Positions 8,478 through 54,682 of a stretch of DNA of 64,000 bases are shown in pieces. Below the pieces are notes generated by a model that saw only the letters and a list, made by a program, of their open reading frames with translations, was not told where the DNA came from and did no database searches. The position numbers and the translations under genes were made by a program. Source of the DNA: Streptomyces sp. NBC_00433 (GTDB taxonomy: Bacteria > Actinomycetota > Actinomycetes > Streptomycetales > Streptomycetaceae); the NCBI GenBank assembly GCA_036015235.1, contig CP107926.1, positions 248,001 through 312,000 of the forward strand, read 5' to 3'. Every line of letters begins with the position of its first letter. The stretch's first letter is position 1.

Positions 8478-8484
8478 CCCCGAC

Positions 8485-22798: not shown

Positions 22799-25228
22799 AT
22801 GAACACACCTCGATGGCGACCGCGCCGAGTGACCTCCGGCAGGCGATGGCTGCGCCTGGGGATGGCGCTTCTCCTCAGCGCTGCCGCCGGCACCGGGGCC
22901 GTGGTGGCCGCCGCACCCGCGGCACAGGCGGCCACGGCGATCACCGTCAACGGCGCCTCCACCGGCCGGGCCTTCGACGGAGTGGGTGCGATCAGCGGCG
23001 GGGGCGGCAACTCCCGGCTGCTCATCGACTACCCGGCGACGCAGCGCTCGCAGATACTGGACTACCTGTTCAAGCCGGGTTACGGCGCCGCCGTGCAGCT
23101 GCTGAAGCTGGAGATCGGCGGCGACGCCAACTCCACCGACGGCGCGGAGCCGAGCATCGAGCACGCGCGCGGTGACGTCAACTGCAACGTGGGCTACGAG
23201 TTCTGGCTCGGCGAGCAGGCTGTCGCCCGCAACCCGAACATCAAGATCGTCGCTCTGCCCTGGGCCGCGCCCGGCTGGATCGGCGGCGGGAACTTCTGGT
23301 CCCAGGACATGATCGACTACGACGTCCAGTGGCTGGACTGCGCCAAGCAGCACGGGCTGCCGGTCAGCTACATCGGCGGGTGGAACGAGCGCGGGCACAA
23401 CAAGACCTGGTACGAGAACCTGCGCACCGCCCTCAACTCCCACGGCTACAGCGGCGTCCAGATCGTCGCCGACGACAGCTTCGGGTGGGGCGCTGCGGAC
23501 GACGCCCAGAGCGACCCGGCGTTCAAGGCCGCGATCGGCGTGGTCGGTGCGCACTACCCGTGCGGCTACCTGGGTGCCGCGACTTCGTGCTCATCCAGTT
23601 CCAATGCCGTCGCGAGCGGCAAGTCGCTGTGGGCCAGCGAGTTCGGCTCGCAGGACTACATGACCGGTTCGGCCCCGTACATCCGCAGCATCACCCGCGG
23701 GTACCTGGACGGGCAGATGACCGGATTCATCAACTGGCCGCTGGTCGCCGCGCTCACCCCGAACCTGCCGTTCGCCACCGACGCGCTGGCGGTGGCCTCC
23801 TCGCCGTGGTCGGGCGCCTACCAGCTCGGCAAGAGCCTGTGGGCCAACGCCCAGGTCGCCCAGTTCGCCCAGCCCGGCTGGCGCTTCCTGACCGGCTCGG
23901 CCTCCGGCTACCTCGGCGGCAACCGCGCCAACGGCAGCTACATCTCGCTGAAGTCCACCAACGGCACCGACTACTCGACGATCTACGAGACGACCACCGC
24001 CTCCGCGGCGCAGACGGTGAACATCAACGTGACGGGCGGGCTCAACACCGGCACCGTCCACGTGTGGTCCACCGACCTGGGCTCGTCCAGCTCGTCGAAC
24101 TGGTTCGTCAAGCAGTCCGACGTCACGCCGACGGGCGGCAGTTACTCGCTGACGCTGCAGCCCAACCGCATCTACTCGGTGACCACCACCACCGGCCAGG
24201 GCAAGGGGACGGAGGCCGGCCCGGCGTCCGCGCCGCTGGCGCTGCCGTACACCGACACCTACGACTCCTACGCCTCCCGCGCCGAGGCGAAGTACTTCTC
24301 CGACATGCAGGGCTCCTTCGAGGTACGCCCCTGCGCCGCCGGCAGGACCGGCCAGTGCCTGCAGCAGGTCACGCCGTCGCGGCCGATCGAGTGGCAGGAC
24401 GACAGCGACGCCTTCGGCCTGCTCGGTGACACGTCCTGGAGCAACTACAAGGTCAGTACCGACGTGAACTTCCAGCAGGCCGGCACCGTGACCCTGCTCG
24501 GCCGGGCCAACACCCAGCAGCGGCCGCAGTCGCACCAGGCGGCGTACCAACTGCGGCTGAGCAACACCGGATCCTGGTCGATCGTCAAGAGCACCACCTC
24601 CGGCACGCTGACCACCCTCGCGTCAGGCAGCCACGCCTCGCTGGGCCTCAACACCTGGCACACGGCCTCGCTCAGCTTCACCGGCAGCCAGATCAGCGCC
24701 ACCCTCGACGGCGCCGCACTCGGCTCCGCCTCGGACGGCTCGTACGGCTCCGGCCAGGTCGGGCTGGGAGTCGTCGGCTACCAGACCGACATGTTCGACA
24801 ACCTCTCGGTCACCGCGACCAGCGGCGACGGCGGCGGTGGCAGCACGGGTCCGATCAGGGGCCAGGCGTCGAGCCGCTGCGTCGACGTCCCCAACGCCAC
24901 GCAGACCAACGGCACCGTCACCGAGCTGTGGGACTGCAACAGCGGCGCCAACCAGAACTGGACCCTCACCTCCGCCAAGCAACTGACCGTCTACGGGAGC
25001 AAGTGCCTCGACGTGAGCGGGCGCGGCACGGCCGACGGCACGGCGGTCGACATCTACGACTGCAACGGCGGCACCAACCAGCAGTGGACGCTGAACTCCG
25101 ACGGAACGATCGTCGGCACCGGCTCGGGCAAGTGCCTGGACGCCACGGGCAGTGGCACTGCCAACGGCACCCTGCTGGAGATCTGGACCTGCAACGGCGG
25201 TGCCAACCAGAAGTGGACCCGCAGCTGA
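22799..25228 (+). CDS. Secreted GH59 galactocerebrosidase-like glycosidase with ricin-type CBM13
   Basis: An 809-residue extracellular enzyme. A Tat-like or Sec signal peptide (RRVTSGRRWLRLGMALLLSAAAG, ending AAQAAT) is followed by a domain strikingly like animal galactosylceramidase. Matching segments are FDGVGAISGGGGNSRLLIDYP, QILDYLFKPGYGAAVQLLKLEIGGD, the acid/base Glu197 in GGWNERGHN and the likely nucleophile Glu281 in LWASEFGS. The lectin-like beta-sandwich characteristic of GH59 follows (PIEWQDDSDAFGLLGDTSWSNYKVSTDV). A C-terminal ricin-type trefoil (about residues 680-809) has repeated SRCVDV, SKCLDV and GKCLDA elements. In a soil bacterium the target is more likely plant galactan or galactolipid than sphingolipid, but this is inference. 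Start: ATG at 22799 with AAAGGA upstream. Confidence 0.9.
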   Translation: MNTPRWRPRRVTSGRRWLRLGMALLLSAAAGTGAVVAAAPAAQAATAITVNGASTGRAFDGVGAISGGGGNSRLLIDYPATQRSQILDYLFKPGYGAAVQLLKLEIGGDANSTDGAEPSIEHARGDVNCNVGYEFWLGEQAVARNPNIKIVALPWAAPGWIGGGNFWSQDMIDYDVQWLDCAKQHGLPVSYIGGWNERGHNKTWYENLRTALNSHGYSGVQIVADDSFGWGAADDAQSDPAFKAAIGVVGAHYPCGYLGAATSCSSSSNAVASGKSLWASEFGSQDYMTGSAPYIRSITRGYLDGQMTGFINWPLVAALTPNLPFATDALAVASSPWSGAYQLGKSLWANAQVAQFAQPGWRFLTGSASGYLGGNRANGSYISLKSTNGTDYSTIYETTTASAAQTVNINVTGGLNTGTVHVWSTDLGSSSSSNWFVKQSDVTPTGGSYSLTLQPNRIYSVTTTTGQGKGTEAGPASAPLALPYTDTYDSYASRAEAKYFSDMQGSFEVRPCAAGRTGQCLQQVTPSRPIEWQDDSDAFGLLGDTSWSNYKVSTDVNFQQAGTVTLLGRANTQQRPQSHQAAYQLRLSNTGSWSIVKSTTSGTLTTLASGSHASLGLNTWHTASLSFTGSQISATLDGAALGSASDGSYGSGQVGLGVVGYQTDMFDNLSVTATSGDGGGGSTGPIRGQASSRCVDVPNATQTNGTVTELWDCNSGANQNWTLTSAKQLTVYGSKCLDVSGRGTADGTAVDIYDCNGGTNQQWTLNSDGTIVGTGSGKCLDATGSGTANGTLLEIWTCNGGANQKWTRS

Positions 25229-25312: not shown

Positions 25313-27238
25313 TCAGCGGTCCGAAAGGAAGAGCATGTACGCGGTGCGGTCGAACGGGTTCCCGTCGGTTCGGGCGCGGCGCGGGGGCGGGTCGGTCGTG
25401 ACCGCCTTGTCGCCGTCCGTGTACGACGTCCACGAGGCGCCGCCGTTCGTCAGCGGCGGGAGGAGCCGGCGTACCCCGGGGAGCGTGCGCAGCGGGATCC
25501 GGCCCTCGATCAGCCAGGCGTCCGACTCCTGGCGGCAGGATTCGATCTCCGCCTCGCTCCTGGTCAGGAGGCTGGTCACGGCCCCGAAACCGTCCGCGGG
25601 CAGCTCCACCCAGAAGCGGTGCAGCGGCTCGTACACCGCGGTGCCGGCCTGCGCCAGCGCCTGCATCAGTACATAGGGCGTGACATCCCTGAAGTCCCCC
25701 GCGGCGGAGAACGGGCGCGCCCAGAAGCCGCAGTGGGTCATCGTGACGCGGATGTCGACCACCTGCCAGCCGTAGCACCCCTGGGACAGGGCCGATCCGA
25801 TCCGGTCCCGCACCGCGTCGTGGAAAGCCGCGGGCAGCGCCCCCGACTCGACGGTCCGGTGGTAGGTCGTGCCGCGGCCCGGCTCGACCCGCAGTCCCAC
25901 GGTGGCCAGGAAGCCGTTCCCGATCAGCTCGACGGCCGAGCCCGCGCCGACGGGCCTTTCCAGGTGGACGATGGCCGGCAGGTCGAAGGCGGCCTCGACG
26001 CCGAACTCGTCCGCCAGGGTCTGCTGGAGCACTTCCTGCTGGACATGGCCGTACAGGTGGAGGACGGAGCCGCCGTCAGGTCCCTGCTCGGCGCGGATCG
26101 TCGGGTCCCGCTCGGCCAGCGTGAGCAGGGCCGCGCGCAGGGTCGGCGCGCTCAGCGGATCCGTCGGCCGTACCGCGACCTGAAGGCTCGGCGGCGGGAA
26201 CTGGCGTCCCCGGACCGGGGCGTCCGCGATCCCGAGCCGGTCGCCGACGCGCAGGTCCGCCGGGCCGCCGACGGCCGCGATGTGGCCGGCGGTGAGCCGC
26301 TCGCGCCCGGTGCCGGGCGGGGCGACCACGTCGAGGCCGCGGATCCGCTCGCGGGAGGAGGAGCCGTCGGCCCTGTGGACGTCCACGTGCTGCCGGGCGG
26401 TCAGCGTACCGCCGAAGCAGCGCACCAGCGGACGCCTCTCGCCCCGCTCGTTCCGGCCGACGGCGAACACGGAGGCGGACAGGTCACCGCCGCCGGGCGG
26501 CGGCTCCAGCAGTTCCGCGAGCACCCGGCGCAGGGTTCGGATGCCGGCGCCGGTGATGGCCGAGCCGAAGACGACCGGGTGGACCAGGCCGGCGGCGGTC
26601 TGGCCGCGCAGCGCACGGAGCAGGTCCGCGGGCTCCGGGCAGCGGTCGGCGACGAGCCCTTCCAGGATCTCCTCGTCGTTCTCGGCCAGGGCCTGGGCCC
26701 ACTGCCACCGCGTACCGGCACCGGTGGGTTCGGCCGGCTCGAAGTCCGCGTCGGCCGTGCCGGTGCGCACCGGTACGCCCATGGCGAGCGGCCGCAGTCC
26801 CAGCTTGCCGGACAGCTCGCCGAGCAGTTCGGGACCGGACGCGCCGGGCCGGTCCAGCTTGTTGACGAACACCACGGTCGGCAGCCGCAGCCGCTCGATG
26901 ACGCGGTACAGCCCGCGGGTCCGCGGCTGCACTCCGTCGGTCGCGGAGACCACCAGGATCACCGCGTCCACCGCCGTCAGGGCACGCTCGACCTCGGCCA
27001 CGAAGTCGGCGTGCCCCGGGGTGTCGACCAGGTTGTACTGGCGGTCGCCGTCCTGGAAGGACGCGACGGCCGACCGGATGGTGATGCCCCGGGCGCGCTC
27101 GATCGCGTCCGAGTCGGTCTGCGTGGTGCCCTGGTCGACGCGGCCCATCCGGCTGATCGCGCCGCACTCGAAAAGCAGCCGCTCCGTCAGACTCGTCTTG
27201 CCCGCGTCGACATGGGCGAGGATGCCGAGGTTGAGCAC
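25313..27238 (-). CDS. Ribosomal protection GTPase, Tet(M)/OtrA type (putative self-resistance)
   Basis: A 641-residue EF-G-like translational GTPase of the size and build of Tet(M)/OtrA. It starts with GTG at 27238 and opens LNLGILAHVDAGKTSLTERLL. G-motifs are AHVDAGKT, RGITI, DTPGH and NKLD. The middle region carries the EF-G domain II core (RCFGGTLTARQHVDVHR). The C-terminal half carries the domain III-V pattern (YGHVQQEVLQQTLADEFGVEA, MTHCGFWARP, DVTPYVLMQALAQAGTAVYEP). Such proteins free the ribosome from bound antibiotics. It is the last gene of the leftward operon, 14 bp after the FAD oxidoreductase. There is no tetracycline-type PKS nearby, so it is best read as self-protection against this cluster's product. 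Confidence 0.9.
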   Translation of the reverse strand: MLNLGILAHVDAGKTSLTERLLFECGAISRMGRVDQGTTQTDSDAIERARGITIRSAVASFQDGDRQYNLVDTPGHADFVAEVERALTAVDAVILVVSATDGVQPRTRGLYRVIERLRLPTVVFVNKLDRPGASGPELLGELSGKLGLRPLAMGVPVRTGTADADFEPAEPTGAGTRWQWAQALAENDEEILEGLVADRCPEPADLLRALRGQTAAGLVHPVVFGSAITGAGIRTLRRVLAELLEPPPGGGDLSASVFAVGRNERGERRPLVRCFGGTLTARQHVDVHRADGSSSRERIRGLDVVAPPGTGRERLTAGHIAAVGGPADLRVGDRLGIADAPVRGRQFPPPSLQVAVRPTDPLSAPTLRAALLTLAERDPTIRAEQGPDGGSVLHLYGHVQQEVLQQTLADEFGVEAAFDLPAIVHLERPVGAGSAVELIGNGFLATVGLRVEPGRGTTYHRTVESGALPAAFHDAVRDRIGSALSQGCYGWQVVDIRVTMTHCGFWARPFSAAGDFRDVTPYVLMQALAQAGTAVYEPLHRFWVELPADGFGAVTSLLTRSEAEIESCRQESDAWLIEGRIPLRTLPGVRRLLPPLTNGGASWTSYTDGDKAVTTDPPPRRARTDGNPFDRTAYMLFLSDR

Positions 27239-27252
27239 GCCGGCGGCGGGCC

Positions 27253-28473
27253 TCAACGCTCCGCCCCGCGTGCCGTCACCGGTGGCCTCCCGGGGTCCGG
27301 TGCGCCGGGAGCGTCCCGCACCAGCGCCTCCGCCGACCGCATTCCGGCCAGCACGCCGAGGTAGACCTCGGTGAGTTCGGCGGAGTCCCGGATGCGCCGG
27401 TGGGCGGCCAGGCGGCGTTCGGTGACGGTGAGGTCGGCGGCGGCGAGGGTCGCCGCGTAGCCTTCCGCCAGCATCCCGTCCCGGCGCCGGGCGAACTCCT
27501 CCAGTGCGGCGTCCGCCGCCCGGTCGGACCCGCACCGCCCGGCCAGCAGGCCCGCGAGGGACTCGGCCTGCCGGAAGGCGTCGGTGATGCCGCGGGCGGT
27601 GATGCTGTCCTTGTGGTGTCCCGCGTCGCCCACCAGCGCCCAGCCGCGCCCGGCGGGCCGGCGGAAGAAGTTCCGCTGGTCCCCCGTGCCGGTCAGCCGC
27701 AGGTCCGGCTGTCCGGACCGGAGCCGGTCGTGGAGGTCGGGCGCCAGGGTGCTGATCGTCCCCAGGTGGAATCCCATCGGATCGGTGCGCGCGCGGGCGA
27801 AGTCCGCCTGGGGAGCGTAGGTGGCGACCAGCGAGATGTCGTCATGGGTGGGGATGACGCTGAGGTAGGCGTGCTGGGACTCGGCCAGCCGCACCTGGTC
27901 GCCGCCCATCCGCCAGCCGGTGTAGTAGACGCAGGTGCGGCGCGGGTGCTCGGTGGTGGTCGGCGAACCGCACCGGCGGGCCAGCGTCGACCGCATGCCG
28001 TCGGCCCCGACGACGACCCGGCCCCGCTCCTCGGAGACGGTCCCGTCGGGACCGCGCAGCAGCGCGCCGACGACCCGGCCGTCCCGCCGTACCACGTCGA
28101 CCAGCTTCGTCCGGGCCCTGAAGCGCGCGCCGGCCGCCCGGGCCGCGTCGGTCAGGAGCCGGTCGAGTACGTGGCGCCGGGGCGCGAGGGCGTAGTCGAT
28201 GCCGTCGTAGCCGGGCAGCGGGCCGCCGACGGAGACCGTCCCGATGGTGTGGGTCAGGCGGCGCAGCGGGGGGACGCCGGTTTTCAGCAGTGCCTCCAGG
28301 ACTCCCCACTCGGCGAGTCTGGCCACTCCCGGTTGGTGGATGTAGAGCGTGGACATGGTGTCGGAGGGGAAGTCCGCCTGGTCGACCAGCAGGACCCGCT
28401 GGCCGGACTCGCTCAGGAGGAGGGCGGTCGCCGCGCCCGCGCAGCGAGCGCCGATCACCAGCACGTCGTACAT
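27253..28473 (-). CDS. FAD-dependent oxidoreductase / monooxygenase
   Basis: A 406-residue flavoprotein of the p-hydroxybenzoate hydroxylase/geranylgeranyl reductase superfamily. The N-terminal dinucleotide-binding strand-turn-helix is VLVIGARCAGAATALLL followed by the acidic VLLVDQ. A middle motif VVGADGMRSTLAR and the FAD-ribityl motif GWALVGDAGHHKDSITARGI are typical of hydroxylases. I use the ATG at 28473, with AAGGA seven bases upstream; an in-frame GTG at 28488 also has a plausible site. It probably tailors the hybrid product; the substrate is unknown. Confidence 0.88.
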   Translation of the reverse strand: MYDVLVIGARCAGAATALLLSESGQRVLLVDQADFPSDTMSTLYIHQPGVARLAEWGVLEALLKTGVPPLRRLTHTIGTVSVGGPLPGYDGIDYALAPRRHVLDRLLTDAARAAGARFRARTKLVDVVRRDGRVVGALLRGPDGTVSEERGRVVVGADGMRSTLARRCGSPTTTEHPRRTCVYYTGWRMGGDQVRLAESQHAYLSVIPTHDDISLVATYAPQADFARARTDPMGFHLGTISTLAPDLHDRLRSGQPDLRLTGTGDQRNFFRRPAGRGWALVGDAGHHKDSITARGITDAFRQAESLAGLLAGRCGSDRAADAALEEFARRRDGMLAEGYAATLAAADLTVTERRLAAHRRIRDSAELTEVYLGVLAGMRSAEALVRDAPGAPDPGRPPVTARGAER

Positions 28474-28555: not shown

Positions 28556-29305
28556 TCAGTCCCATCCCGAGCGGGAGATGATGGCGTCCGCGACGTCGTC
28601 GGTGTGGTCGAGCAGCAGGTTGTGCCCGCCGGGCAGCCGGTGGAGTTCGAGCCCGCCGGTGGTGAACCCGGACCACCCCCGGAAGTCCGGTTCGACGACC
28701 GTCGTGTCGGCGGTGCCGAGGAAGCCGACCACCGCGGCCCCGATCCTGGCGCCGCCCTCGGACCGGTAGGTCTCGATCGCCTCGTAGTCGGCGCGCAGGG
28801 CGGGCACGAGCAGTTCCAGCAGCTCGTCGTCCTCAAGGATGAAGTCGGGTACGTAGCCGTCGGCGGCGACCCGCCTGATGAACGGGCCGAGGGGCCACCG
28901 CCACACCCCGTCGCGGGGGATCCGGTCGGGCGGCTCGTGGGCGGAGACGAACAGCGTGCGGACGTCGGTGTCCGCCAGCCGGCGGACGATCTCGAACGCC
29001 ACGACGGCCCCGGAGCAGTGGCCGTAGACGGTGATCGGCCGGCCGGCGGCATGCCGGACGAGCGCGTCCGCGGCCTGCTCCGCGATCAGGTGCACATCGC
29101 GGAGCGGCTCCTCGTACAGCCGGGCCTCACGGGCCGGCAGCCGCACCGCGACCGCGGTGGCGTGGCGCCCGATCCTGCGGCTCAGGTCGCGCACCGCGGC
29201 CGCGCCGGCACCGGCGTGCGGCACGGCGTAGAAGACCTCGTCGCGGCCGGCCCGGGGGGCGGAGGCGATCTCCACCAGCCACGGGCTGCTCTGCGGTCCG
29301 GTCAT
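28556..29305 (-). CDS. Type II thioesterase (first of three)
   Basis: A 249-residue alpha/beta-hydrolase of the PKS/NRPS external thioesterase class. It has FYAVPHAGAGAAAVRDL near the N-terminus, the nucleophile Ser in GHCSGAVVAFE, a helical lid rich in acidic residues (DFILEDDELLELLVPALRADY) and the catalytic His in LPGGHNLLL. Its ATG overlaps the stop of the interrupted adenylation gene. Such enzymes clear mis-acylated carriers, but because no multidomain protein here has its own thioesterase, it could also take part in release. Confidence 0.9.
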   Translation of the reverse strand: MTGPQSSPWLVEIASAPRAGRDEVFYAVPHAGAGAAAVRDLSRRIGRHATAVAVRLPAREARLYEEPLRDVHLIAEQAADALVRHAAGRPITVYGHCSGAVVAFEIVRRLADTDVRTLFVSAHEPPDRIPRDGVWRWPLGPFIRRVAADGYVPDFILEDDELLELLVPALRADYEAIETYRSEGGARIGAAVVGFLGTADTTVVEPDFRGWSGFTTGGLELHRLPGGHNLLLDHTDDVADAIISRSGWD

Positions 29306-31623
29306 GGCCGCCCCTTCTTCCCGGCGACCAGCGCCGCGAGCGCCGGCCGGTCCACTTTCCCCACCGGGTTGACGGGGAAGGAGGGCACTTCGACCAGGTG
29401 GTCGGGGACCATGTAGGCCGGGAGCTCCCGCGTCGCGAAGTCGCGCACCTGCCGCTCGGTGACGCCGCCGGAACGGTAGAACGCGGCGAGCCGCTGTCCG
29501 CCGGGACCGGGCACGGCCAGCACCACCGCGGCCCGGACGCCGTCCATCCGGGTCAGCACGTTCCGCACCTCGCCCAGTTCGATCCGGTAGCCGCGGATCT
29601 TGACCTGGTCGTCGGCGCGTCCGAGGAATTCGATCAGGCCGCTCCGCCACCAGCGGGCCCGGTCACCGGTCCGGTACATCCGGCCGCCGGGCGCCGGCGA
29701 CCAGGGGTCGGGCACGAACTTCGCCCCGGTCAGCTCGGCGTCCCCCGCGTAGCCCACGGCCAGGCAGTCCCCGCCGATGTAGAGGTCGCCGGGCACACCC
29801 ACCGGGCACGGGGAACCGCCCCCGTCCAGGACGTAGTAGCGCGCGTTGTCGATCGGGACGCCGTAGGGCACGCTCGGCCACGCCGGATCGAGGTCGTTGG
29901 CCAGGAAGTGGTTCGACCACACCGTGCACTCGGTGGCGCCGCCCAGTGCGACCACGTCCGCCGTCGGGAACTGCGCCCTGATCTCGCCGGGCAGCGTCAG
30001 CGGGATCCAGTCCCCGCTCAGCAGCACCAGCCGCAGCGGCGCGCCGTCGAGGTCGTCGCGGAGGCCGAGGAAGGGCGTCACCATCGCGAGCATCGCCGGC
30101 GCGGAGTCCCAGATCGTGATCCGCTCCTCGACCAGGAGGTCCAGCAGGACGTCGGGTTCCCGCAGCTCCTCCTCCCCCGCCACGCGGAGGTAGCCGCCGG
30201 CGGCGAGGGTGCCGAAGATGTCGAACACCGACAGGTCGAAGCAGAAGGAGGCGACCGCGAGCAACCGGTCCTGGGGACCGATCCCGTAGGCGCGCCGCAG
30301 CCAGGCGATGAGGTTGACCACGGGCCGGTGCTGCACGACGACGCCCTTGGGGACCCCGGTGGAGCCCGAGGTGAAGATGACGTACGCGGTCGACTCCGGG
30401 GTGGTCGGCGCCGGCAGCGGCACCGCAGGCCGGGTCGCGATGTCGGCGCCCGTCCAGAAGGTCCGCGCCCTGGGGGCGCCGGCCGGGTCCGCCACCGTGA
30501 CGGCGACGTCGAAACGGTGGCCCAGCGCGCCGCCCAGCCCGGTCCCGGCCCGCTCGTGCACCTCCACCCGCGCCACCGCGGGCAGCACCTCCGCGAGGCG
30601 TTCGAACGACGCCCGCGACAGTGCGAGGCCCGCGTTCTCCTCGTGGTCGAGGTCGACCAGATCGCCCAGGAGCACCCGGCCGCCGGGCCGCAGCAGCCGG
30701 ACCGCGGCGTCCAGCACGTCGTACAGGTATTCGGCGTCGGGGAAGAACTGCACCACGCTGGACATCACCACCAGGTCGAACCGGCCGGTCACCAGCTCGC
30801 CGACCCGGTGGGCAGGGCCGACGACCCCCTCGATCGCGGGCCGCCCCTCACCGTGGCGCTCCAGCACCTTGCGCACCGACACCGGGGAGATGTCCATCGC
30901 CACGTATCTGTTGGCGCCGCCGGCCAGCTCGTCCACCAGCTCACCGGAGCCGCAGCCGATCTCCAGGACGTCCGGCCGCCGCGGGGCGCCCGCGCGGGCC
31001 AGGCCGGCGACGTGCGCGCGGTACGCCTCGACGTCGTGGAGGCGGTAGGCGTCCGTGCCGCGGGCGTTGAACCCCGCGGCGCGGACCCGGTCGGTGTCGT
31101 CGACGATGTAGTCGAACAGGTCGGCCACCGCCGTCTCGTCGAGCGCCGCCGCGGGCTCGGGCCGGTCCGGACGGCCGGGGCAGACCACCCCGCGTACGGA
31201 GGGCACCTCGGCGGCCAGTCGCTGTGCCTCCCGCTGCCGGCCCGCCCCGGAGACCACGCAGGCCACGCCGAGATCGGTGAGCAGCCGCTCCGTCCTGGCC
31301 CGGGGCCACGCGGGATCCAAGGGCACGTACGCGGCCCCCGCTTTGAGGATCGCGACCAGGGAGACCACCGCCCATGTGTCGCGCCGGCTGAACAGCGCGA
31401 CGTAATCGCCTGGTTCGACGCCGGTCTCGGAGAGCAGGCGCGCCATGCGGTCGGACGCCGCGTCGAGTTCGCGGTACGTGAGCCTCGTTCCGTGGGCATC
31501 GCCGACCGCCGGAGCGCCGGGGTCCCGGGCGACGGCCTCCCTGATCAGGTCCGGGAGGGTGGCGCGGTCGGGGAAGGGCGCGGCGGTCTCGTTCCACTCC
31601 GGGTCGGGGTAGGTCGTCGTCAT
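29302..31623 (-). CDS. Stand-alone NRPS adenylation domain interrupted by a methyltransferase (A-MT-A)
   Basis: A 773-residue bifunctional protein. Motifs A1 (LTYREL) and A2 (LKAGAAYVPLDP, residues 94-104) come first. A complete SAM methyltransferase occupies about residues 160-395, with motif I VLEIGCGSG at 219-227 and MDISPVSV after it. Adenylation resumes at A3 (YVIFTSGSTGVPKG, 414-427) and runs through GGATE (561-565), YRTGD (650-654), KIRGYRIELGE and the A10 Lys756. The insert thus lies between A2 and A3. The specificity residues, read by alignment to GrsA, are D463 L464 F467 D506 L534 S536 L560 V568 W569 K756; seven of ten match the cysteine code DLYNLSLIWK and the other three are conservative. 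So it probably activates and methylates cysteine. It has no carrier domain; the free PCP gene overlaps its start. Confidence 0.9.
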   Translation of the reverse strand: MTTTYPDPEWNETAAPFPDRATLPDLIREAVARDPGAPAVGDAHGTRLTYRELDAASDRMARLLSETGVEPGDYVALFSRRDTWAVVSLVAILKAGAAYVPLDPAWPRARTERLLTDLGVACVVSGAGRQREAQRLAAEVPSVRGVVCPGRPDRPEPAAALDETAVADLFDYIVDDTDRVRAAGFNARGTDAYRLHDVEAYRAHVAGLARAGAPRRPDVLEIGCGSGELVDELAGGANRYVAMDISPVSVRKVLERHGEGRPAIEGVVGPAHRVGELVTGRFDLVVMSSVVQFFPDAEYLYDVLDAAVRLLRPGGRVLLGDLVDLDHEENAGLALSRASFERLAEVLPAVARVEVHERAGTGLGGALGHRFDVAVTVADPAGAPRARTFWTGADIATRPAVPLPAPTTPESTAYVIFTSGSTGVPKGVVVQHRPVVNLIAWLRRAYGIGPQDRLLAVASFCFDLSVFDIFGTLAAGGYLRVAGEEELREPDVLLDLLVEERITIWDSAPAMLAMVTPFLGLRDDLDGAPLRLVLLSGDWIPLTLPGEIRAQFPTADVVALGGATECTVWSNHFLANDLDPAWPSVPYGVPIDNARYYVLDGGGSPCPVGVPGDLYIGGDCLAVGYAGDAELTGAKFVPDPWSPAPGGRMYRTGDRARWWRSGLIEFLGRADDQVKIRGYRIELGEVRNVLTRMDGVRAAVVLAVPGPGGQRLAAFYRSGGVTERQVRDFATRELPAYMVPDHLVEVPSFPVNPVGKVDRPALAALVAGKKGRP

Positions 31624-31877
31624 CGGATCCCCAACTGCTCCGCGACGGCCCGGCCGACGCCGCGCACGGTGGGGGCGGCGAAGAAGAGCCGCAGGGGCAG
31701 CCGGACCCCCACCCGCTTCGACAGCGCGGCCATCGCCTTCGCCACCAGGAAGGAATTGCCGCCGACGGCGAAGAAGTCCGAGTCGGGCCCGAAGTCCCGG
31801 TGCTCCAGGACCTCCTCCCAGACGTCCTGGACCATCGACGCCACGTCCTGGAGGCTCATGTCGACTTGCTCGGTCAT
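31620..31877 (-). CDS. Free-standing peptidyl carrier protein
   Basis: An 85-residue discrete carrier. The phosphopantetheine site is DSDFFAVGGNSFLVAKAM, with Ser in GGNS. Flanking helices (VASMVQDVWEEVLEH and PLRLFFAAPTVRGVGRAVAEQL) are typical of PCPs. Start and stop overlap both neighbours (ATGA), so it is made together with the A-MT-A protein and the methyltransferase. It most likely holds the residue activated by the A-MT-A protein. Confidence 0.93.
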   Translation of the reverse strand: MTEQVDMSLQDVASMVQDVWEEVLEHRDFGPDSDFFAVGGNSFLVAKAMAALSKRVGVRLPLRLFFAAPTVRGVGRAVAEQLGIR

Positions 31878-33256
31878 GGCCGGTCCCCCTCCTGTCCGAT
31901 CACGCTGCCGTCGGGTGAGCAGAGCCTGCCGACCTGGAGGGCGGGGACGCGGCCGTCCGCCGCCGCTGCCGTACCGCCCTCCGCGACCAGGTATTTCCGC
32001 AGGTCGTCCAGCAGGGACCAGATCCGGCCCGCGGGCAGCGCCGGCTGCGCTGTCGCGCCCGCCGCGTCCCGGCTGGGAAGGGACAGCCCGAAATGGGCGT
32101 CCGGGGCCTGCTGCGGGCCGGCCCACACCTCCAGCGCGCCGCAACCCGACCCGGGTGCGCACCCCACCCGGACCCTCCAGCCGCGGAGCCCGTCCAGTGC
32201 CCACAGGTCCTCCGGGTCGACGGCGTCGCCGCCCAGGTCGCCCGGCCGGGCGTTGGCCAGTCCCCGCCAGACGGCCGGTCCGCCGCCGCTCTCGATGTGG
32301 CGGCGGACGGCCGGGACCGGCGCGCCGTCAGCCGTCAGCTCACGCGGGCTCGTCCCGGGCGGCGGGCATCCCACATGCAGGACGGCGTCGAAGCGGAAGA
32401 CGTTCATCTCGTTGCGGTAGCGGCCCCGTTTGGGCGCGGCCTCGACAGCGGTCACCGCGTCGAGGCCGCCCGCCAGCGACTTGACATAGGCGGGCGACAG
32501 GCCGAGTTCGAAGTCCCGGCGCTGGTGCCGTTCGAGGTCGAACTCCGCGCCCGCGTCGCCCGCGAGCTGCCGGTAGTAGGACGGGAGCAGGGTGGCGTCA
32601 CGCAGGTCCCCCAGGAAGAGGTGCCCCCGCGGCGCCATCAGGCCGATCGCCCTGCCGAGGACCTGCTCCAAGTACCGCACGCTGGGGAAGTACTGGGCCA
32701 CCGAGTTCACGATCACCAGGTCGTAGCCGCCCGACTCCGAGGCGGGGAGCCCCTCGTGCGCCGCGCCCTGGTGGACGCGCACGCGGACACCGGTGCCGGC
32801 CCGGCCGGCGATCGACCGCAGCGCACGGACCGACGCGGCGGCGAGGTCGGTGGCCACGTACTCGTCGAGGGGCGCGGCGGCGAGCAGGGCGCCCATGACC
32901 AGCCCGGTCCCGGCGCCGATCTCCAGGACGCGGCGCGGTCGCAGCGCGGTGATCCGGTCCACTGCCGCGTCGGTCCACTCGCGCATCTGGACTTCCGGCA
33001 CCGGCTTGCCGGTGAGGCCGTCGATCCAGCCGACCAGCTGCCGGGCGGGTGCGTCCCCGCCGCGGTCCGCCCCCTGGTCGTAGAGGTCCTCGAACAGGTA
33101 GGACCATCCGTCGACCGTCTCGTCCACGGCGGCCAGCGGCTGGATCTCGATACGCGGCGGCGGACCGGGCAGCAGGCGCGCGGCGGCCACCCGCGGGTGG
33201 GCTTCGAGCAGGCGGACCCAGGTGTCCTGGGGCGTCCGCGGTCCGGCGTAGGTCAT
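31874..33256 (-). CDS. Discrete SAM methyltransferase of the NRPS-embedded type
   Basis: A 460-residue protein resembling the methyltransferase domains normally inserted in NRPSs, but encoded alone. Before the SAM fold comes the usual lead-in (ETVDGWSYLFEDLYDQGAD, LVGWIDGLTGKPVPEVQMREW). The SAM site reads VLEIGAGTGLVMGALL followed by VATDLAAASV, then DLVIVNSVAQYFPSVRYLEQVL. The last 130 residues form a separate region of unclear role. With the MT inside the A-MT-A protein the cluster has two such domains, which suggests two methylations (for example N and S, or on two residues). It overlaps the genes on both sides. Confidence 0.87.
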   Translation of the reverse strand: MTYAGPRTPQDTWVRLLEAHPRVAAARLLPGPPPRIEIQPLAAVDETVDGWSYLFEDLYDQGADRGGDAPARQLVGWIDGLTGKPVPEVQMREWTDAAVDRITALRPRRVLEIGAGTGLVMGALLAAAPLDEYVATDLAAASVRALRSIAGRAGTGVRVRVHQGAAHEGLPASESGGYDLVIVNSVAQYFPSVRYLEQVLGRAIGLMAPRGHLFLGDLRDATLLPSYYRQLAGDAGAEFDLERHQRRDFELGLSPAYVKSLAGGLDAVTAVEAAPKRGRYRNEMNVFRFDAVLHVGCPPPGTSPRELTADGAPVPAVRRHIESGGGPAVWRGLANARPGDLGGDAVDPEDLWALDGLRGWRVRVGCAPGSGCGALEVWAGPQQAPDAHFGLSLPSRDAAGATAQPALPAGRIWSLLDDLRKYLVAEGGTAAAADGRVPALQVGRLCSPDGSVIGQEGDRP

Positions 33257-36200
33257 CGCGCCACCTCCGCGGGCCGGCGCGCCTGCGCGGTCAGCCGCTC
33301 GAAGTAGGAGCGCATGGCCGCGAGGAGCTGCCTGATCCGGTCCTCCGCGTACCGGTCCGCGCTGAAGGTGACGGAGAACCAGAGCCGGTCGTCCGCGATC
33401 ATCGCGCCGATCTCCAGTTCGTGCGGGCGGATCATGCGCGGCGCGCGATCGTGCTCGGGAAAGCCCGCGAAGGTCAGCGCCCTGTCCCTGCGGTCGGCGC
33501 CGGTGACCGAACCGAGGTAGGTCACCCCTACGCGGTTGCGGCGCGGGGCCAGGTCCTTGGACATGAAGGCGAGCAGTCCGTATCCGAGGCCGCCGCGGGG
33601 GACCCCGCGCAGGGCGCTCATCGCGCCGTCCAGCTCCCGCAGCGGCGCCGGGTCCGGGGCCGGCAGCGCGAGGGGGAACAGGGCGGCGAACCAGCCGACG
33701 GTCCGCGACAGGTCGATCGTCTCGGCGATGTCGTTGCGCCCGTGGGTCTCGAAGTCGATCAGCAGCGGTCCGCCGTCGGTGACCGGCCGCAGCGCCGCCG
33801 CGGCGCCGGCCAGGACGATCTCGGTGAGCGTCGCCCCGGTCGCGGCCGTCACCTCGGAGCGCAGGGCGCGGGTGGCGTCCAGGTCCAGGGACTCGGCCAG
33901 GGTGGCCTGCGAGGCGACGTCGTTCCTGCCGGCCGGGCGGTCGACCAGGACGCGGCTGGGCGCCGACTCGACCACCCGCCGCCAGTAGCGGGCCTCGGAC
34001 CGTACCTCCGCGGAGCCGGCGGCCGTCTCCAGCGCCCGGCCCCACTGCTGGTAGGTCGATCCCTGCGGGAGGAGCTCGACCGGCTCCTCGCGGGCCAGCT
34101 GCTCGCAGGCGGTGACGACGTCGTCGGCGAAGATGCCCATGGAGGCCGGTTCCATGATGAGGTGGTGGGCGGCGACGAGCAGCTTCCTGCGGTCCCCGGG
34201 CAGGGTGAACAGCGCGCAGGACACGAGCGGTCCCCCGACCGGGTCCACCGAGGACTGGCAGGTCCGCACCGCGCGGTCGAAGGCCGACTCCGCGCGGTCG
34301 GGCGCCATCGGGGAGAAGTCGAACACCCGCAGGACGTCGCCGGGCCGGGCGGCGGCGTAGGACTGGGTCCACTGCCCTGTGGCGGAACGGCGGAACCGCA
34401 GCCGGAAGGCGTCGTGGTGGTCGAGGGCCGCGTCGATCGCGGCGCTCAGGAAGGACGCGTCGACTCCGGGGGCGACATCGAAAAGGTTGCTGTAGTTGTA
34501 GTGGCCCGCCTCCGGGTCGGGGCCGGTCAGGAACCACGACTGGATGGGGAGCAGCGGCACGACGCTGTCCGCGGCGGCCGCCGCGTCCCCGCCGGCCGCC
34601 GGCGCGGCCGCGCCGCTGCCGGGTGCGCCGGCGACCTCCGCCACGAGCAGGGCCGCGAGGTCGGCCACCGTCTGCCCGAGGAACATGTGCCGCGGCCGCA
34701 TCGGGTAGCCGGCCTTGCGCGCGGAGGCGACGACGCGCAGGCCCAGCAGGGAGTCCCCGCCGATGTCGAAGAAGTTCTCGTCCGGCCCCAGGGTGTCCAG
34801 GCCGAGCGCCTCCTTCCAGATGCCGTGCAGCACCGTGACGGCCCGCTCCAGGTCGTCCGCGGCCGGGCGACCGGCGGGCGCCGCGGGCGCGGGGGCCGGC
34901 GGCCGTGGCCCGGGTCCGGCCCGGCGCCTCGACGAGCCCAGCTCGACGCCGTCCACGCACTGCCCCGGGTCCTCGGCCAGCGCCCGCAGGACGGCGGCCA
35001 GGTCGGCGGTGAAGGTCTCGCCCCAGGGGAGGTCCCACAGGTCCGCTGAGAAGTCCACGACGCAGGCGAGCCGGTCCCCTTCCTGGTGGAAGGACGTCGC
35101 GATGTCCAGAGCGCTGCCCTCGGCGCCCGTGTCGACGATCTCGGCCCTGACTCCCTCCAGTTCGAGGTCCTGGCCCGGTGGCTGCAGGGTCACCGCGTGC
35201 TGGAAGACGGGGTGGTGGGACAGGCTGCGGGCGGGCGTCACCACCTCGACCAGCCGCTCGAACGGCAACCGGTCGTGGCGGTAGACGTCCAGGGCGGTGC
35301 GGCGCACCCGGGCGATCAGTTCGGCGAAGGTGATCCCCGGCTCGTAGTCCGAGCGGTACACGAGCTCGTTGACCAGCGTTCCGATCATCGGGTGGGTCAC
35401 CGGGTCGCGGCGCCCGGACCCGGCCCCTCCCACGCAGAAGTCCGCCTGCCCGCCCATCCGCCCCAGCAGAACCTGGTAGGCGGCCAGCAGCAGCATGTAG
35501 AGCGTCGCCCGCTGCTCACGCGAGCGGCGGTCCAGCGCGGCGGTCAGCCCGGCGTCGAGGTAGCTCCACACCCGGTGGGCCCTGCCGCTGAGCGCGGCCG
35601 GCCGCGGGCGGTCGGTGGGCAGGCGCAGGGTCGGCGGCACCGGCGTCAGCCGGCGCTTCCAGAAGTCCTCCTGCTCCCCCCACGGTTCGGCGGCCTCGGC
35701 GGCCGCCTCCCGCGCGGCGTACTGGCCGTACTGCAGGGGGAGCGGTTCCGCGGCGGCGGCCGGGCCGCCGTGCCGGTGCCGGCGGTATCCCTCGTTGAGC
35801 TCCTCCATCAGCACGCCGCACGACCAGCCGTCGAAGACGATGTGGTGGAACCCCAGGAGCAGCAGGAACTCCTCGTCGGCGCGGCGCAGCAGGACGCCGC
35901 GCAGCAGCGCGGCGTCCAGGGCGAACGGCGCGTTCGTCTCGTGGAAGACCACCTCGTCCTCCCGCCGCGACCGTTCCGGTTCGGGGCGGTCGCGCAGGTC
36001 GAGGTGGCGCAGGGCGAAGGTCCTGTCGTGGACGACCTGGACGGGCCGGTCGCCGCGGACCGCGATCGTGGAGCGGAGGATCTCGTGGCGGTCGACGACG
36101 CCGCCCAGCGCGCCTTCGAGCGCGGCGACGTCCAGCGGTCCGCGCAACCGCAGGTGCACGGGGAAGACGTACATGCCGGCCTCGGTGTCCAGCTGGTGGA

Positions 36201-36270
36201 GGAAGTAGAGGCGTTCCTGGGCACGCGTCAGCGGATAGGTGCGCTCCACCGGGGGTGCGGAAGTCTGCAT
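33253..36270 (-). CDS. NRPS module C-PCP-E without an adenylation domain
   Basis: A 1005-residue NRPS. A condensation domain (about 1-445) has the intact HHIVFDGWS site (His142-His143, Asp147). A PCP follows (about 470-545, Ser507 in GGDSLLGL). Then comes a second condensation-type domain (about 568-990) with epimerase features: TVGWFAALFP, GYGLLAFMS and VTYLGS. Its core motif reads HHLIMEPAS, so the usual Asp-Gly are Glu-Pro while both histidines remain. No adenylation domain is present, so its PCP must be loaded in trans, most simply by the A-MT-A protein encoded three genes downstream. Whether the epimerase works is open. Confidence 0.88.
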   Translation of the reverse strand: MQTSAPPVERTYPLTRAQERLYFLHQLDTEAGMYVFPVHLRLRGPLDVAALEGALGGVVDRHEILRSTIAVRGDRPVQVVHDRTFALRHLDLRDRPEPERSRREDEVVFHETNAPFALDAALLRGVLLRRADEEFLLLLGFHHIVFDGWSCGVLMEELNEGYRRHRHGGPAAAAEPLPLQYGQYAAREAAAEAAEPWGEQEDFWKRRLTPVPPTLRLPTDRPRPAALSGRAHRVWSYLDAGLTAALDRRSREQRATLYMLLLAAYQVLLGRMGGQADFCVGGAGSGRRDPVTHPMIGTLVNELVYRSDYEPGITFAELIARVRRTALDVYRHDRLPFERLVEVVTPARSLSHHPVFQHAVTLQPPGQDLELEGVRAEIVDTGAEGSALDIATSFHQEGDRLACVVDFSADLWDLPWGETFTADLAAVLRALAEDPGQCVDGVELGSSRRRAGPGPRPPAPAPAAPAGRPAADDLERAVTVLHGIWKEALGLDTLGPDENFFDIGGDSLLGLRVVASARKAGYPMRPRHMFLGQTVADLAALLVAEVAGAPGSGAAAPAAGGDAAAAADSVVPLLPIQSWFLTGPDPEAGHYNYSNLFDVAPGVDASFLSAAIDAALDHHDAFRLRFRRSATGQWTQSYAAARPGDVLRVFDFSPMAPDRAESAFDRAVRTCQSSVDPVGGPLVSCALFTLPGDRRKLLVAAHHLIMEPASMGIFADDVVTACEQLAREEPVELLPQGSTYQQWGRALETAAGSAEVRSEARYWRRVVESAPSRVLVDRPAGRNDVASQATLAESLDLDATRALRSEVTAATGATLTEIVLAGAAAALRPVTDGGPLLIDFETHGRNDIAETIDLSRTVGWFAALFPLALPAPDPAPLRELDGAMSALRGVPRGGLGYGLLAFMSKDLAPRRNRVGVTYLGSVTGADRRDRALTFAGFPEHDRAPRMIRPHELEIGAMIADDRLWFSVTFSADRYAEDRIRQLLAAMRSYFERLTAQARRPAEVAR

Positions 36271-36381: not shown

Positions 36382-38537
<2,156 letters not shown>

Positions 38538-38541
<4 letters not shown>

Positions 38542-39356
38542 GTCAGTGCCTCCTGGTCGTACGGGGAGGTGAGCTGCCGGAGCTGGGTGTCCACCGCGGC
38601 GCGCAGGACGGCACGGGCCTCGGTGCGGTCGGTCAGGTAGAAGTGCCCGCCGGGGAAGACCCGTTCGTGCGGCGGGCGGGCCAGCACGCCGGCCCACTCC
38701 TGCGGTTCCTCGGGCGCCGTGGAGGCGTCCTCCCGCCCGCTCCACAGTTCGTAGTCCGCCGCCGGGGGCGGCAGCGCCGGGTCGAGGCGGTAGGAATCCA
38801 TGATCATCATGTCGTCGCCGAACGCCTCGACCACGCTCTCCAGCAGGTCCGGGGCCTCGAAGACGGCCGCCGGTGTGCCGCCGTAGCCGGTCAGGTGCGC
38901 CAGCAGGTCCGCTGCCGGCCGCCGCGGCGGCGGCCAGGGCGGAGCGGCGGCCATCGCGACGGCCCGCCGCGGTGACGGGGCGCTGGACACGATCACCCTC
39001 GTGACCATCTCGCGGCGGTCGGCCGGCAGGTTCCGGACCAGCGCGTCGCACAGCAGTCCGCCCAGGCTGTGCCCGAAGAAGATCGCGGGGCGGTCCACCA
39101 GCGGTTCCACCTGCTCCGCGAGGGCGCGCCGCGCCTCGTCGAAGGTCGACCGCCTCGGTTCGGCGTCGCGGAGCCCGCGGCCCGGCAGGTCGAACAGCAA
39201 CGACTCGGCGCCGTCGGGCAGTTCCGAGGCGAGCGGGAGCAGCGAGATCGCGGAACCGCCGGCGTGGGGGAAGAAGAGGACCCGCATCATGGCGTCACTC
39301 GCGGACCCGGTGGCGATGCAGCCGTACCGCTGGTCGATCCGTACCTTCGGACTCAT
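38538..39356 (-). CDS. Type II thioesterase (second)
   Basis: A 272-residue external thioesterase with VLFFPHAGGSAIS, nucleophile motif GHSLGG, and the late VFPGGHFYL with the catalytic His. I use the ATG at 39356 because GGGAGGAG stands eight bases upstream; the family-like part begins at residue 24, so a shorter start is possible. It is the first gene of the left-hand operon that runs through KS-ACP to the ribosomal protection gene. Confidence 0.9.
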
Positions 39357-40006: not shown

Positions 40007-41212
40007 GTGGGGGTGGTGCTCGCGGACCTCCTCGCGAGGCTGATGCCGCACCTGGACGAGCGGCAGCGGCGGCTGGTCGGCGGGGCGGTGGCGCGTCTGA
40101 TCGGCCACGGCGGAATCCGCGAGGTCGCACGGGCCACAGGTCTGGCGGAGTCGACGGTGGCCCGCGGGGCGCGGGAGCTCGAAGCGGGCCTGGTGGCGGA
40201 CGGCCGGGTCCGGGCGGCGGGCGGCGGGCGCAAGCGGCTTCGGGACACCGACCCGGGACTGGTGCAGGCGCTGCTGGCGCTGGTGGAACCGGTCCGGCGC
40301 GAGGATCCGGGGTCGGCCCTGCGCTGGACGACGAAGTCGACCCGACGGCTCGCCGCCGAACTCACCGGCCAGGGGCACCGGGTGGGAGCCGACACGGTGG
40401 CCGCGCTGCTGAAGGCGGAGGGCTTCTCCCTGCGGGCGGCATCACGAACCGCGGAGGGCGCCGGCCACTCCGACAGGGAAGCGCAGTTCCGCCACATCAA
40501 CACGTACGTCTCCCGCTATCTGGACGCCGGGGACCCGGTGATCAGCGTGGAGGCAGGCAAGAGGGAAGTATCCGGCGACAGGTTCGCCGAGCCCGTCCCC
40601 GCCGCCCGCGGGTGCCCTGGCCGGCAGCAGTGGGACGAGGGCCGTCCTCATCCCGGCCTCCCCCCGGGCGCGGCCGGGGGGAGCAGGCCGGCAGCCGCCT
40701 CCGGCGGACCGCACGGCATCGGCGCGGACCCCCGCCGGGTGGCGGTCGCCTGCGACCCGGACACCGCCGCCTTCGCGGTGTCCGCCCTGCACCGCTGGTG
40801 GGCGGTCGAGGGACGGCCGCACTACCCGGACGCCCGGCGCCTGCTGATCGCCACCGACGCCGGCGGCTCCTCGAACCCGTGGGCGGCGCCCTGGAAAGAG
40901 GGTCTCGCCGAGTTCTCCCGCAGCTCCGGCCTGGAGGTCACGGTCTGCCAGCTGCCCCCCGGCACCTTCAAGTGGGACTCGATCGACCACCGGTTCCGCT
41001 CCCGGACCGACGTCACGTGGCGCGGACACCCCCCGGCCTGCCATGAGGTCGTGATCGGCCGCGTCGGCGTGACCGGCACCGCGGACGCGGACCCCGCCCC
41101 TCCCTCCGCCGCCACCGCCTCCGGCCACCTCGCCGCGGGCCCCCCGTCGGCCCCGCCCGACTGGCACGGCGTCTGGAACTACACCCTCACCCCCGAACAC
41201 CCCGGGCCCTGA
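40007..41212 (+). CDS. ISAzo13-type transposase derivative, probably inactive or domesticated
   Basis: A 401-residue relative of ISAzo13 transposases. The N-terminal helix-turn-helix part is well kept (GGIREVARATGLAESTVARGARELE, RRLAAELTGQGHRVGADTVAALLK), as are the core segments RHINTYVSRYL, DTAAFAVSALHRWW, IATDAGGSSN and the tail DWHGVWNYTL. Against the consensus I remember, the first catalytic Asp (ISVDTKKKE) is Glu (ISVEAGKRE) and the last Glu (IEHRLFS) is Asp (IDHRFRS). The segment after the first position is replaced by Pro/Gly/Ala-rich sequence. I see no terminal inverted repeats. It is either a decaying insertion or a gene reused as a DNA-binding protein inside the cluster. Several GTG codons at 40007-40016 could be the start. 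Confidence 0.72.
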   Translation: MGVVLADLLARLMPHLDERQRRLVGGAVARLIGHGGIREVARATGLAESTVARGARELEAGLVADGRVRAAGGGRKRLRDTDPGLVQALLALVEPVRREDPGSALRWTTKSTRRLAAELTGQGHRVGADTVAALLKAEGFSLRAASRTAEGAGHSDREAQFRHINTYVSRYLDAGDPVISVEAGKREVSGDRFAEPVPAARGCPGRQQWDEGRPHPGLPPGAAGGSRPAAASGGPHGIGADPRRVAVACDPDTAAFAVSALHRWWAVEGRPHYPDARRLLIATDAGGSSNPWAAPWKEGLAEFSRSSGLEVTVCQLPPGTFKWDSIDHRFRSRTDVTWRGHPPACHEVVIGRVGVTGTADADPAPPSAATASGHLAAGPPSAPPDWHGVWNYTLTPEHPGP

Positions 41213-54336: not shown

Positions 54337-54682
54337 GGCAGCTTTCCCACCTTCGTGGCTCACTTCGGCTCGGCAACAGAGCTCACACGCACGCCGTCCA
54401 TGATGCCAATGAATGCCCGTCGTGACTTGAACAGTGTTTGACAGGGCCGAATACCTCCTTGCGTCCGTTATTGCCCGGAAACCGTAGCCGTTCAGGGACT
54501 CGCACCGCAGGTACGGGCGGACGTCCACCTGCCAGGTCCCGCGTTCAACTGCTCGCCGCGGTCGGTTGAACACGCGTACTCAACTCCGCGGGACTGCTCG
54601 TAGTCTGGCCGAGCGGCGATGCCGAAAGGAACTCCCGCCGCGGTGGGCGGACCTGGCGACCGGAATTCCCGGGAAGGATTTC
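54337..54682. promoter_or_regulatory. Divergent promoter region of the two biosynthetic operons
   Basis: A 346-bp region between the leftward NRPS and the rightward thioesterase. It contains the StrR-type box at 54543. Rightward, TAGTCT at about 54601 could serve as a -10 element. Leftward, an AT-richer stretch lies at 54400-54480. No gene is supported here. Confidence 0.65.
54543..54571. promoter_or_regulatory. Perfect StrR/NovG-type activator box
   Basis: The site reads GTTCAACTG, 11 spacer bases, then CGGTTGAAC. It fits the published StrR/NovG consensus GTTCRACTG-N11-CRGTYGAAC at every position. It lies 207 bp upstream of the NRPS start and 112 bp upstream of the thioesterase start, between divergent operons. 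The window encodes a StrR-family protein at 41847, the probable ligand. Confidence 0.88.

Follow-up and report, generated by a model that had tools for sequence, protein, structure and literature searches.

Adenylation (A) domains interrupted by a methyltransferase differ in the site of the insert and in the atom that is methylated. KtzH and other A domains interrupted between motifs A8 and A9 combine activation with side-chain methylation (PMC11355689). The same review names few A domains of the A2-A3 type, among which TioN and MarQ are S-methylating and TtcC/TtmB are N-methylating (PMC11355689). TioN activates and S-methylates L-Cys (PMC11355689, PMC8949500), and N,S-dimethyl-Cys is a constituent of thiocoraline (PMC4052310). 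In this study, we analyzed 64,000 nucleotides of Streptomyces sp. NBC_00433 (contig CP107926.1, positions 248,001 to 312,000; the window), which encode an A2-A3 interrupted A enzyme, here called AMsA, a free-standing peptidyl carrier protein (PCP) and a free-standing methyltransferase of the type found inside TioS, here called orphan M (Table 1). AMsA itself is of the known TioN kind; AMsA together with orphan M as a partner is a variant arrangement beyond the TioN system. We consider it probable that the two together make N,S-dimethyl-Cys on a PCP for a polyketide synthase (PKS)-nonribosomal peptide synthetase (NRPS) chain of the trans-acyltransferase (trans-AT) kind.

Architecture of AMsA

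AMsA is a stand-alone A domain with an S-adenosylmethionine (SAM) methyltransferase inserted between A2 and A3. Its open reading frame begins with ATG and encodes 773 amino acid residues, in which Pfam matched AMP-binding in two stretches (the better one at residues 378–625), Methyltransf_11 at residues 220–318 and AMP-binding_C at residues 686–756. A scripted motif search covering A1–A5, A7–A10 and methyltransferase motif I located the complete set: A1 (residues 48–57), A2 (93–104), motif I (VLEIGCGSG, 219–227), A3 (413–427), A4 (462–465), A5 (561–565), A7 (650–655), A8 (668–685), A9 (734–740) and A10 (GKVDR, 755–759). Except for two islands of 6–7 residues, residues 136–394 were matched in at most 3 of 13 aligned uninterrupted relatives. 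Moreover, the core motifs of A2 and A3 are 322 residues apart by hand count, versus 70–80 residues in the 14 uninterrupted relatives in which both motifs were detected by pattern. The AlphaFold model from a 26-row alignment had a pLDDT of 90.3 and a pTM of 0.92, and replaced an earlier 9-row model in which the A core was poor (pLDDT 67.0). The first-pass annotation had placed the insert between A2 and A3 and motif I at residues 219–227, and had named structure prediction as a check of the insertion point. Motif I was located exactly there, and motif order, the alignment with the 13 relatives and the 26-row model all agree with an A2-A3 site. Thus, different from KtzH and other A8-A9 interrupted domains, AMsA carries its insert between A2 and A3; by description, it can be likened to MarQ of maremycin biosynthesis in both the A2-A3 insertion and the S-methylation proposed below (PMC11355689, PMC8949500).

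Relatives of AMsA

Including the window, 14 loci with a full-length AMsA were found, and the other 13 enzymes were 43–74% identical to that of the window. Because the full-length architecture is common to 14 loci, a chance origin of the interruption is excluded. Of 28 loci detected by scanning the species-genome collection, eight encode full-length interrupted enzymes (L001–L008, identities 45–74%; L and G numbers denote our loci and genomes). The plasmid collection added four (L043, L044, L046, and L047), and the family sample added one with an in-frame stop (G065). The 14 loci are not independent, as L043, L046, and L047 are almost one cluster. Left out of the count were L009–L019 and L021–L026, in whose open frames no methyltransferase motif was detected by pattern; L020, L027, and L028, which are too short or broken; and L045 (H5), an uninterrupted A domain. 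The uninterrupted A domains of L009 and L010 (Chitinophaga), whose code is DLYDFSLVWK, as well as that of L045 (positions 6720–9365, from an S. decoyicus plasmid), are close to the A part of AMsA.

A search at E ≤ 1e-130 detected AMsA in one of 35 genomes of the genus, the window's own (30 candidates scored in each), and in 4 of 121 genomes of the family sample (8 scored in each); with so few candidates scored per genome, rare members may be missed. The four positives of the family sample include the window's genome, and two others, G074 and G061, appear from their contig numbers and positions to be L002 and L006 again. Viral contigs held one partial A domain and nothing more. In the tree of AMsA, the window enzyme grouped with that of L001 (support 100/100).

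The enzyme of L007 (Verrucosispora sioxanthis) is 51% identical to AMsA over the full length. Approximately 10 kb from its gene, a 3140-residue NRPS is encoded that is nearly identical, as judged from the printed alignment, to PDB entry 5wmm (TioS A4-M4). Given this near-identity, the L007 enzyme is by synteny the TioN orthologue of a thiocoraline cluster, and by homology the window enzyme is an additional member of the TioN kind; the kinship is drawn through this orthologue. TioN, which the first-pass annotation had named as a precedent, is therefore an apt one. AMsA shares with TioN the full-length architecture, a free PCP upstream, a GHC-type thioesterase nearby and 9 of 10 code residues, all compared via L007. 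Different from the TioN system, the window cluster is of the trans-AT PKS-NRPS type, and no thiocoraline-like TioR/TioS NRPS with embedded N-methyltransferase modules was found among the window proteins. Moreover, the N-methyltransferase partner is a free protein in the window, whereas in the L007 cluster it lies inside the A domains of TioS.

At 11 of the 14 AMsA loci (the window, L001–L005, L007, L043, L044, L046, and L047), the gene immediately upstream of AMsA encodes a free PCP, and a thioesterase is encoded in the vicinity. The stand-alone layout with a free PCP, at first thought unusual, is therefore common in this small family. All 11 thioesterases contain GHC.G, with Cys in the usual place of Ser; on Cys-nucleophile type II thioesterases, our literature search found nothing. 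GHC.G instead of GHS.G also occurs in a second window thioesterase (54566–55465, + strand).

Specificity code of AMsA

The ten code residues of AMsA were hand-picked from the alignment at what we take to be the GrsA positions and reproduced the code read earlier, DLFDLSLVWK, which equals that of the L007 enzyme (DLYDLSLVWK) at 9 of 10 positions. Its previously noted likeness to cysteine codes gains from this match with a TioN orthologue and from comparison with DLFNFSLVW, the code of TioS module 3. Over 297 residues, the A part of AMsA is 54% identical to the A domain of that module in the L007 cluster; the identity to module 4 is 37%. When only PDB chains matched in one stretch are considered, A3–A10 of AMsA fits BmdB best (305 bits), and PchE reached 256 bits; both presumably take Cys. 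TioS module 3 incorporates L-Cys (PMC4052310).

Orphan M and TioS-type M domains beside AMsA

In our view, the neighboring orphan M is more telling than the layout of AMsA itself. Its sole PDB match at E ≤ 1e-5 was 5wmm, the N-methylating, A8-A9 interrupted A4-M4 region of TioS (E = 8.7e-28, within the M region), and by Pfam it matched methyltransferase families only. Judged by these matches, orphan M is a free-standing protein that resembles the N-methyltransferase domain of TioS. Different from TioS A4-M4, it has no condensation (C) domain and no A core, and the A10 motif was not recognizable in its aligned sequence. The gene upstream encodes a C-PCP-E protein without an AMP-binding match, and four ATGA overlaps join five window genes, those of C-PCP-E, orphan M, PCP, AMsA and thioesterase.

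Eleven of the 14 loci have a TioS-type M domain no more than approximately 20 kb from AMsA, and in nine of these 11 the A core is missing. The A10 Lys is recognizable in one of the 11, in domain M4 of L007 (GKIDH); both M domains of L007 lie inside A domains with an A core, and M3 has no A10 by pattern. The A core is also kept in L003, where A10 is GEIDR. It is gone in L004 (GEVDR), in L043, L046, and L047 (GTVDR, with Thr for Lys) and in the M proteins of the window, L001, L002, L006, and L008, whose A10 is unrecognizable. At their N-termini, the M proteins of L004, L043, L046, and L047 read like the start of a TioS-like C domain (MAPL), for which the C-domain starts of L007 (MAPVSYAQQRMWFINRFEG) and L003 (MAPLSHAHQRTWSINRFEG) serve as comparison, and then run straight into the stretch that follows A8. 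We infer that the C domain and A core were deleted in frame and that this junction is the resulting scar. At the other end, a PCP-like segment (GGESL or GGGSL) closes the M protein in L006 and L008, and the C-terminal stretch of the L002 M protein is one that we take to be MbtH-like. In G148 (L050), an NRPS C domain runs directly into a TioS-type M domain with no A core between them. Within the order, the M-domain search was positive in 2 of 147 genomes at E ≤ 1e-50 (11 scored per genome), the window's own included. No core-less M domain was found in our literature search, and an earlier report may exist.

The tree of M domains has two clades (100/100), at whose split the tool warned of long branches: a TioS side with L007, L003, L004, L043, L046, and L047, and the rest. 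Given these two clades, A cores have probably been lost on two or more occasions. On a more tentative reading, the M tree and the deletion scar suggest two or more such losses in the neighborhood of TioN-type enzymes, so that an enzyme of this type may promote the loss by taking over adenylation. The M domains can be arranged in a series that would be a readable record of an NRPS module dismantled with one activity kept. It leads from intact TioS to S. monashensis (A10 Lys to Glu), then to L-9-10 and three plasmids, which have neither A core nor C domain and retain the scar, and ends with the window type, an M domain with faint flanks.

Proposed route to N,S-dimethyl-Cys and its alternatives

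The route that we consider probable builds on the architecture, homology, code, ATGA overlaps and recurrence of orphan M described above. The A core of AMsA would activate L-Cys and load it in trans onto the free PCP or onto the A-less C-PCP-E protein, and the methyltransferase between A2 and A3 would methylate the sulfur of the loaded Cys. Orphan M, having lost its adenylation core, would depend on the A core of AMsA for substrate charging and would N-methylate Cys, so that the two enzymes in turn would give N,S-dimethyl-Cys. The C domain of the C-PCP-E protein would then add this residue to the trans-AT PKS-NRPS chain. Cys as the substrate, the S- and N-selectivity, the PCP used and the order of steps belong to the proposal. 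More tentatively, the pair may be a divided interrupted A domain, in which the free M is the remnant of a TioS-like C-A-M protein and works only with a TioN-type enzyme that charges Cys. N- and S-methylated cysteines are found in bioactive peptides, such as thiocoraline; here, AMsA, PCP and methyltransferase are encoded as individual small proteins rather than within a megasynthase, and the order and the carrier of the methylations are therefore tractable in vitro.

Several results weigh against the proposed route or against the derivation of orphan M from a TioS-like protein. The window orphan M has no deletion scar, its A-derived flanks are weakly recognizable, and its clade (the window, L001, L002, L006, L008, and G148) stands apart from the TioS M domains. 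G148 has no AMsA at E ≤ 1e-90, despite its core-less C-M protein. No TioS-type M domain was found in 3 of the 14 AMsA loci, namely L044 (42 kb), L005, where the search was limited to a 9.6-kb contig, and G065, where none was detected in 39.5 kb or in the genome at E ≤ 1e-30. N-methylation is therefore no fixed partner of AMsA. Finally, no MbtH match was found within the window, and TioN presumably has an MbtH-like partner; the host genome has three MbtH matches, two of which are mirror copies.

The three loci without a detected M domain bear directly on the simplest alternative, that AMsA makes S-methyl-Cys only and orphan M acts elsewhere, in polyketide C-methylation or in N-methylation of another residue. 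TioN alone is reported to activate and S-methylate L-Cys (PMC11355689, PMC8949500), which agrees with this alternative. However, the orphan M gene is joined to the PCP gene by an ATGA overlap, and TioS-type M domains recur near most AMsA genes, which makes it unlikely that orphan M acts elsewhere.

The Cys-nucleophile thioesterase beside PCP and AMsA in 11 loci suggests another use of the PCP, as a work bench from which the thioesterase frees S-methyl-Cys for re-activation by another A domain of the cluster; TioS module 4 of the thiocoraline cluster has its own A domain. Such a release is quite unlikely, since none of the three other A-domain codes read in the window (DVGEIGGIEK, DAIWLGGVFK, and DMIYLGLVYK) is Cys-like and Pfam detects no A domain in the C-PCP-E protein.

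It is also improbable that the A domain of AMsA takes Ser or an alpha-methyl amino acid and that its methyltransferase is O- or C-directed. Code position 278 is Asp in AMsA, whereas it is Asn in TioS module 3 and in classical Cys codes. The same Asp, however, is found in the TioN orthologue of L007, and TioN is reported to use L-Cys (PMC11355689). In a structural search with the whole AMsA model, the top rows were of the Txo1 serine module (Z 53.7, root-mean-square deviation 1.7, 421 aligned residues, 38% identity), followed by FmoA3, specific for alpha-methyl-L-serine (Z 52.9, 413 aligned, 42% identity), and the Txo2 serine module (Z 52.6), all ranked above BmdB (Z 52.1, root-mean-square deviation 1.7, 398 aligned, 42% identity). 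Serine-type modules are thus structurally as close to AMsA as BmdB or closer, which counts against Cys. The 50 rows listed were A-domain proteins, so that the lack of 5wmm among them is uninformative on the insert.

Least likely is a role of S-methyl-Cys as a leaving group, in which the flavin adenine dinucleotide (FAD)-dependent enzyme oxidizes it and elimination yields dehydroalanine; this idea comes purely from neighbor genes, and tailoring enzymes are commonly FAD enzymes of this type, even though L001 has a 77% identical FAD gene and BE-22179 has N-methyl-dehydro-Ala in place of the N,S-dimethyl-Cys of thiocoraline (PMC4052310).

Host cluster and its counterpart in another Streptomyces genome

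Table 1. Features of the window (positions counted from its first nucleotide)
Position	Strand	Feature	Evidence
22799..25228	+	GH59 galactocerebrosidase-like protein with ricin-type lectin domain; adjoins cluster	
25313..27250	-	Candidate self-resistance gene, encoding an Otr(A)-like GTPase of the ribosomal-protection kind (approximate start)	
27253..28473	-	FAD-dependent oxidoreductase/monooxygenase (start set by hand)	
28556..29305	-	Type II thioesterase, Cys in nucleophile position (GHCSG); ATGA overlap with AMsA end	Pfam, motif
29302..31623	-	AMsA, stand-alone A domain interrupted at A2-A3 by a SAM methyltransferase	Pfam, motifs, alignment, AlphaFold
30442..31218	-	Inserted methyltransferase, residues ~136–394 of AMsA	Pfam, alignment
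31620..31877	-	Free-standing PCP, 85 residues, GGNSF; ATGA overlap with AMsA gene start	Pfam, motif
31874..33256	-	Orphan M, 460 residues, like the A8-A9 M domain of TioS, adenylation core absent; ATGA overlaps with both adjoining genes	Pfam, PDB match
33253..36270	-	NRPS protein C-PCP-E-like, no adenylation domain	Pfam
36382..38541	-	KS-ACP PKS protein	
38538..39356	-	Second thioesterase (GHSLG)	Pfam
40007..41212	+	ISAZ013-type transposase within the cluster, flanked by genes for a regulator and a thioesterase	
43087..44202	-	Cytochrome P450, absent among the G001 matches listed	
44190..45488	-	Discrete trans-acting acyltransferase (start approximate)	
45485..49264	-	AT-less KS-KR-ACP PKS protein (start approximate)	
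49387..50721	-	MFS exporter; best NCBIfam matches TetA(P)/Tet(40), both well under cut-off	
50845..54573	-	NRPS protein PCP-C-A-PCP	
60461..61873	+	KamA-family radical SAM aminomutase, 61% to G001 sister-cluster gene	
61711..63078	+	Argininosuccinate-synthase-related (ArgG-like) protein, NF038212 above cut-off; beside NRPS genes	

The PKS and NRPS proteins of the window are KS-KR-ACP, KS-ACP, C-PCP-E, PCP-C-A-PCP, A-PCP-C and A-PCP, with the M domain free-standing. The genome of L001, G001, encodes many of the same proteins, with identities of 61% (KamA), 39% (PCP-C-A-PCP), 69% (second thioesterase), 73% (KS-ACP), 51% (KS-KR-ACP), 49% (acyltransferase) and 41% (MFS exporter), as well as 72% (C-PCP-E), 66% (orphan M), 68% (PCP), 74% (AMsA), 75% (type II thioesterase), 77% (FAD enzyme) and 69% (GTPase). 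For this comparison, L001 was joined with its upstream part; the G001 contig stops next to KamA. In G001, too, the gene of the Otr(A)-like GTPase adjoins that of the FAD enzyme. The A-PCP-C and A-PCP proteins had weak matches in G001 (25–30%), and among the G001 matches listed there was no counterpart of the P450 or of the ArgG-like gene. Given this gene sharing, the window contains a trans-AT PKS-NRPS cluster from approximately 25.3 kb to at least 61.9 kb that is largely common with one other Streptomyces genome. No published cluster matching it, and hence no product, was found in our literature search.

The Otr(A)-like GTPase scored 633.6 bits with the Otr(A) model, whose cut-off is 900, and the MFS protein 256.7 with the TetA(P) model, whose cut-off is 750. 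By these scores, both are kin of the Otr(A) and TetA(P) families, not members. At a guess, the two genes point to a ribosome-directed product, against which the GTPase could possibly confer self-resistance; the hint given by the Otr(A)-like protein makes such a product worth seeking. The KamA and ArgG-like genes near NRPS genes might provide a beta-amino acid building block.

In the E-like domain of the C-PCP-E protein, the usual HHxxxD is replaced by HHLIME, and this domain may be inactive or altered. A-PCP-C proteins encoded a few kb from the AMsA genes of L006 (14748–17768) and L008 (14923–17964) are 52–54% identical to that of the window (55481–58594). Finally, NRPS matches at approximately 140–157 kb and 8829–8846 kb of G000:C1, near the ends of the chromosome contig, have equal scores and lie on opposite strands, as expected of terminal inverted repeats.

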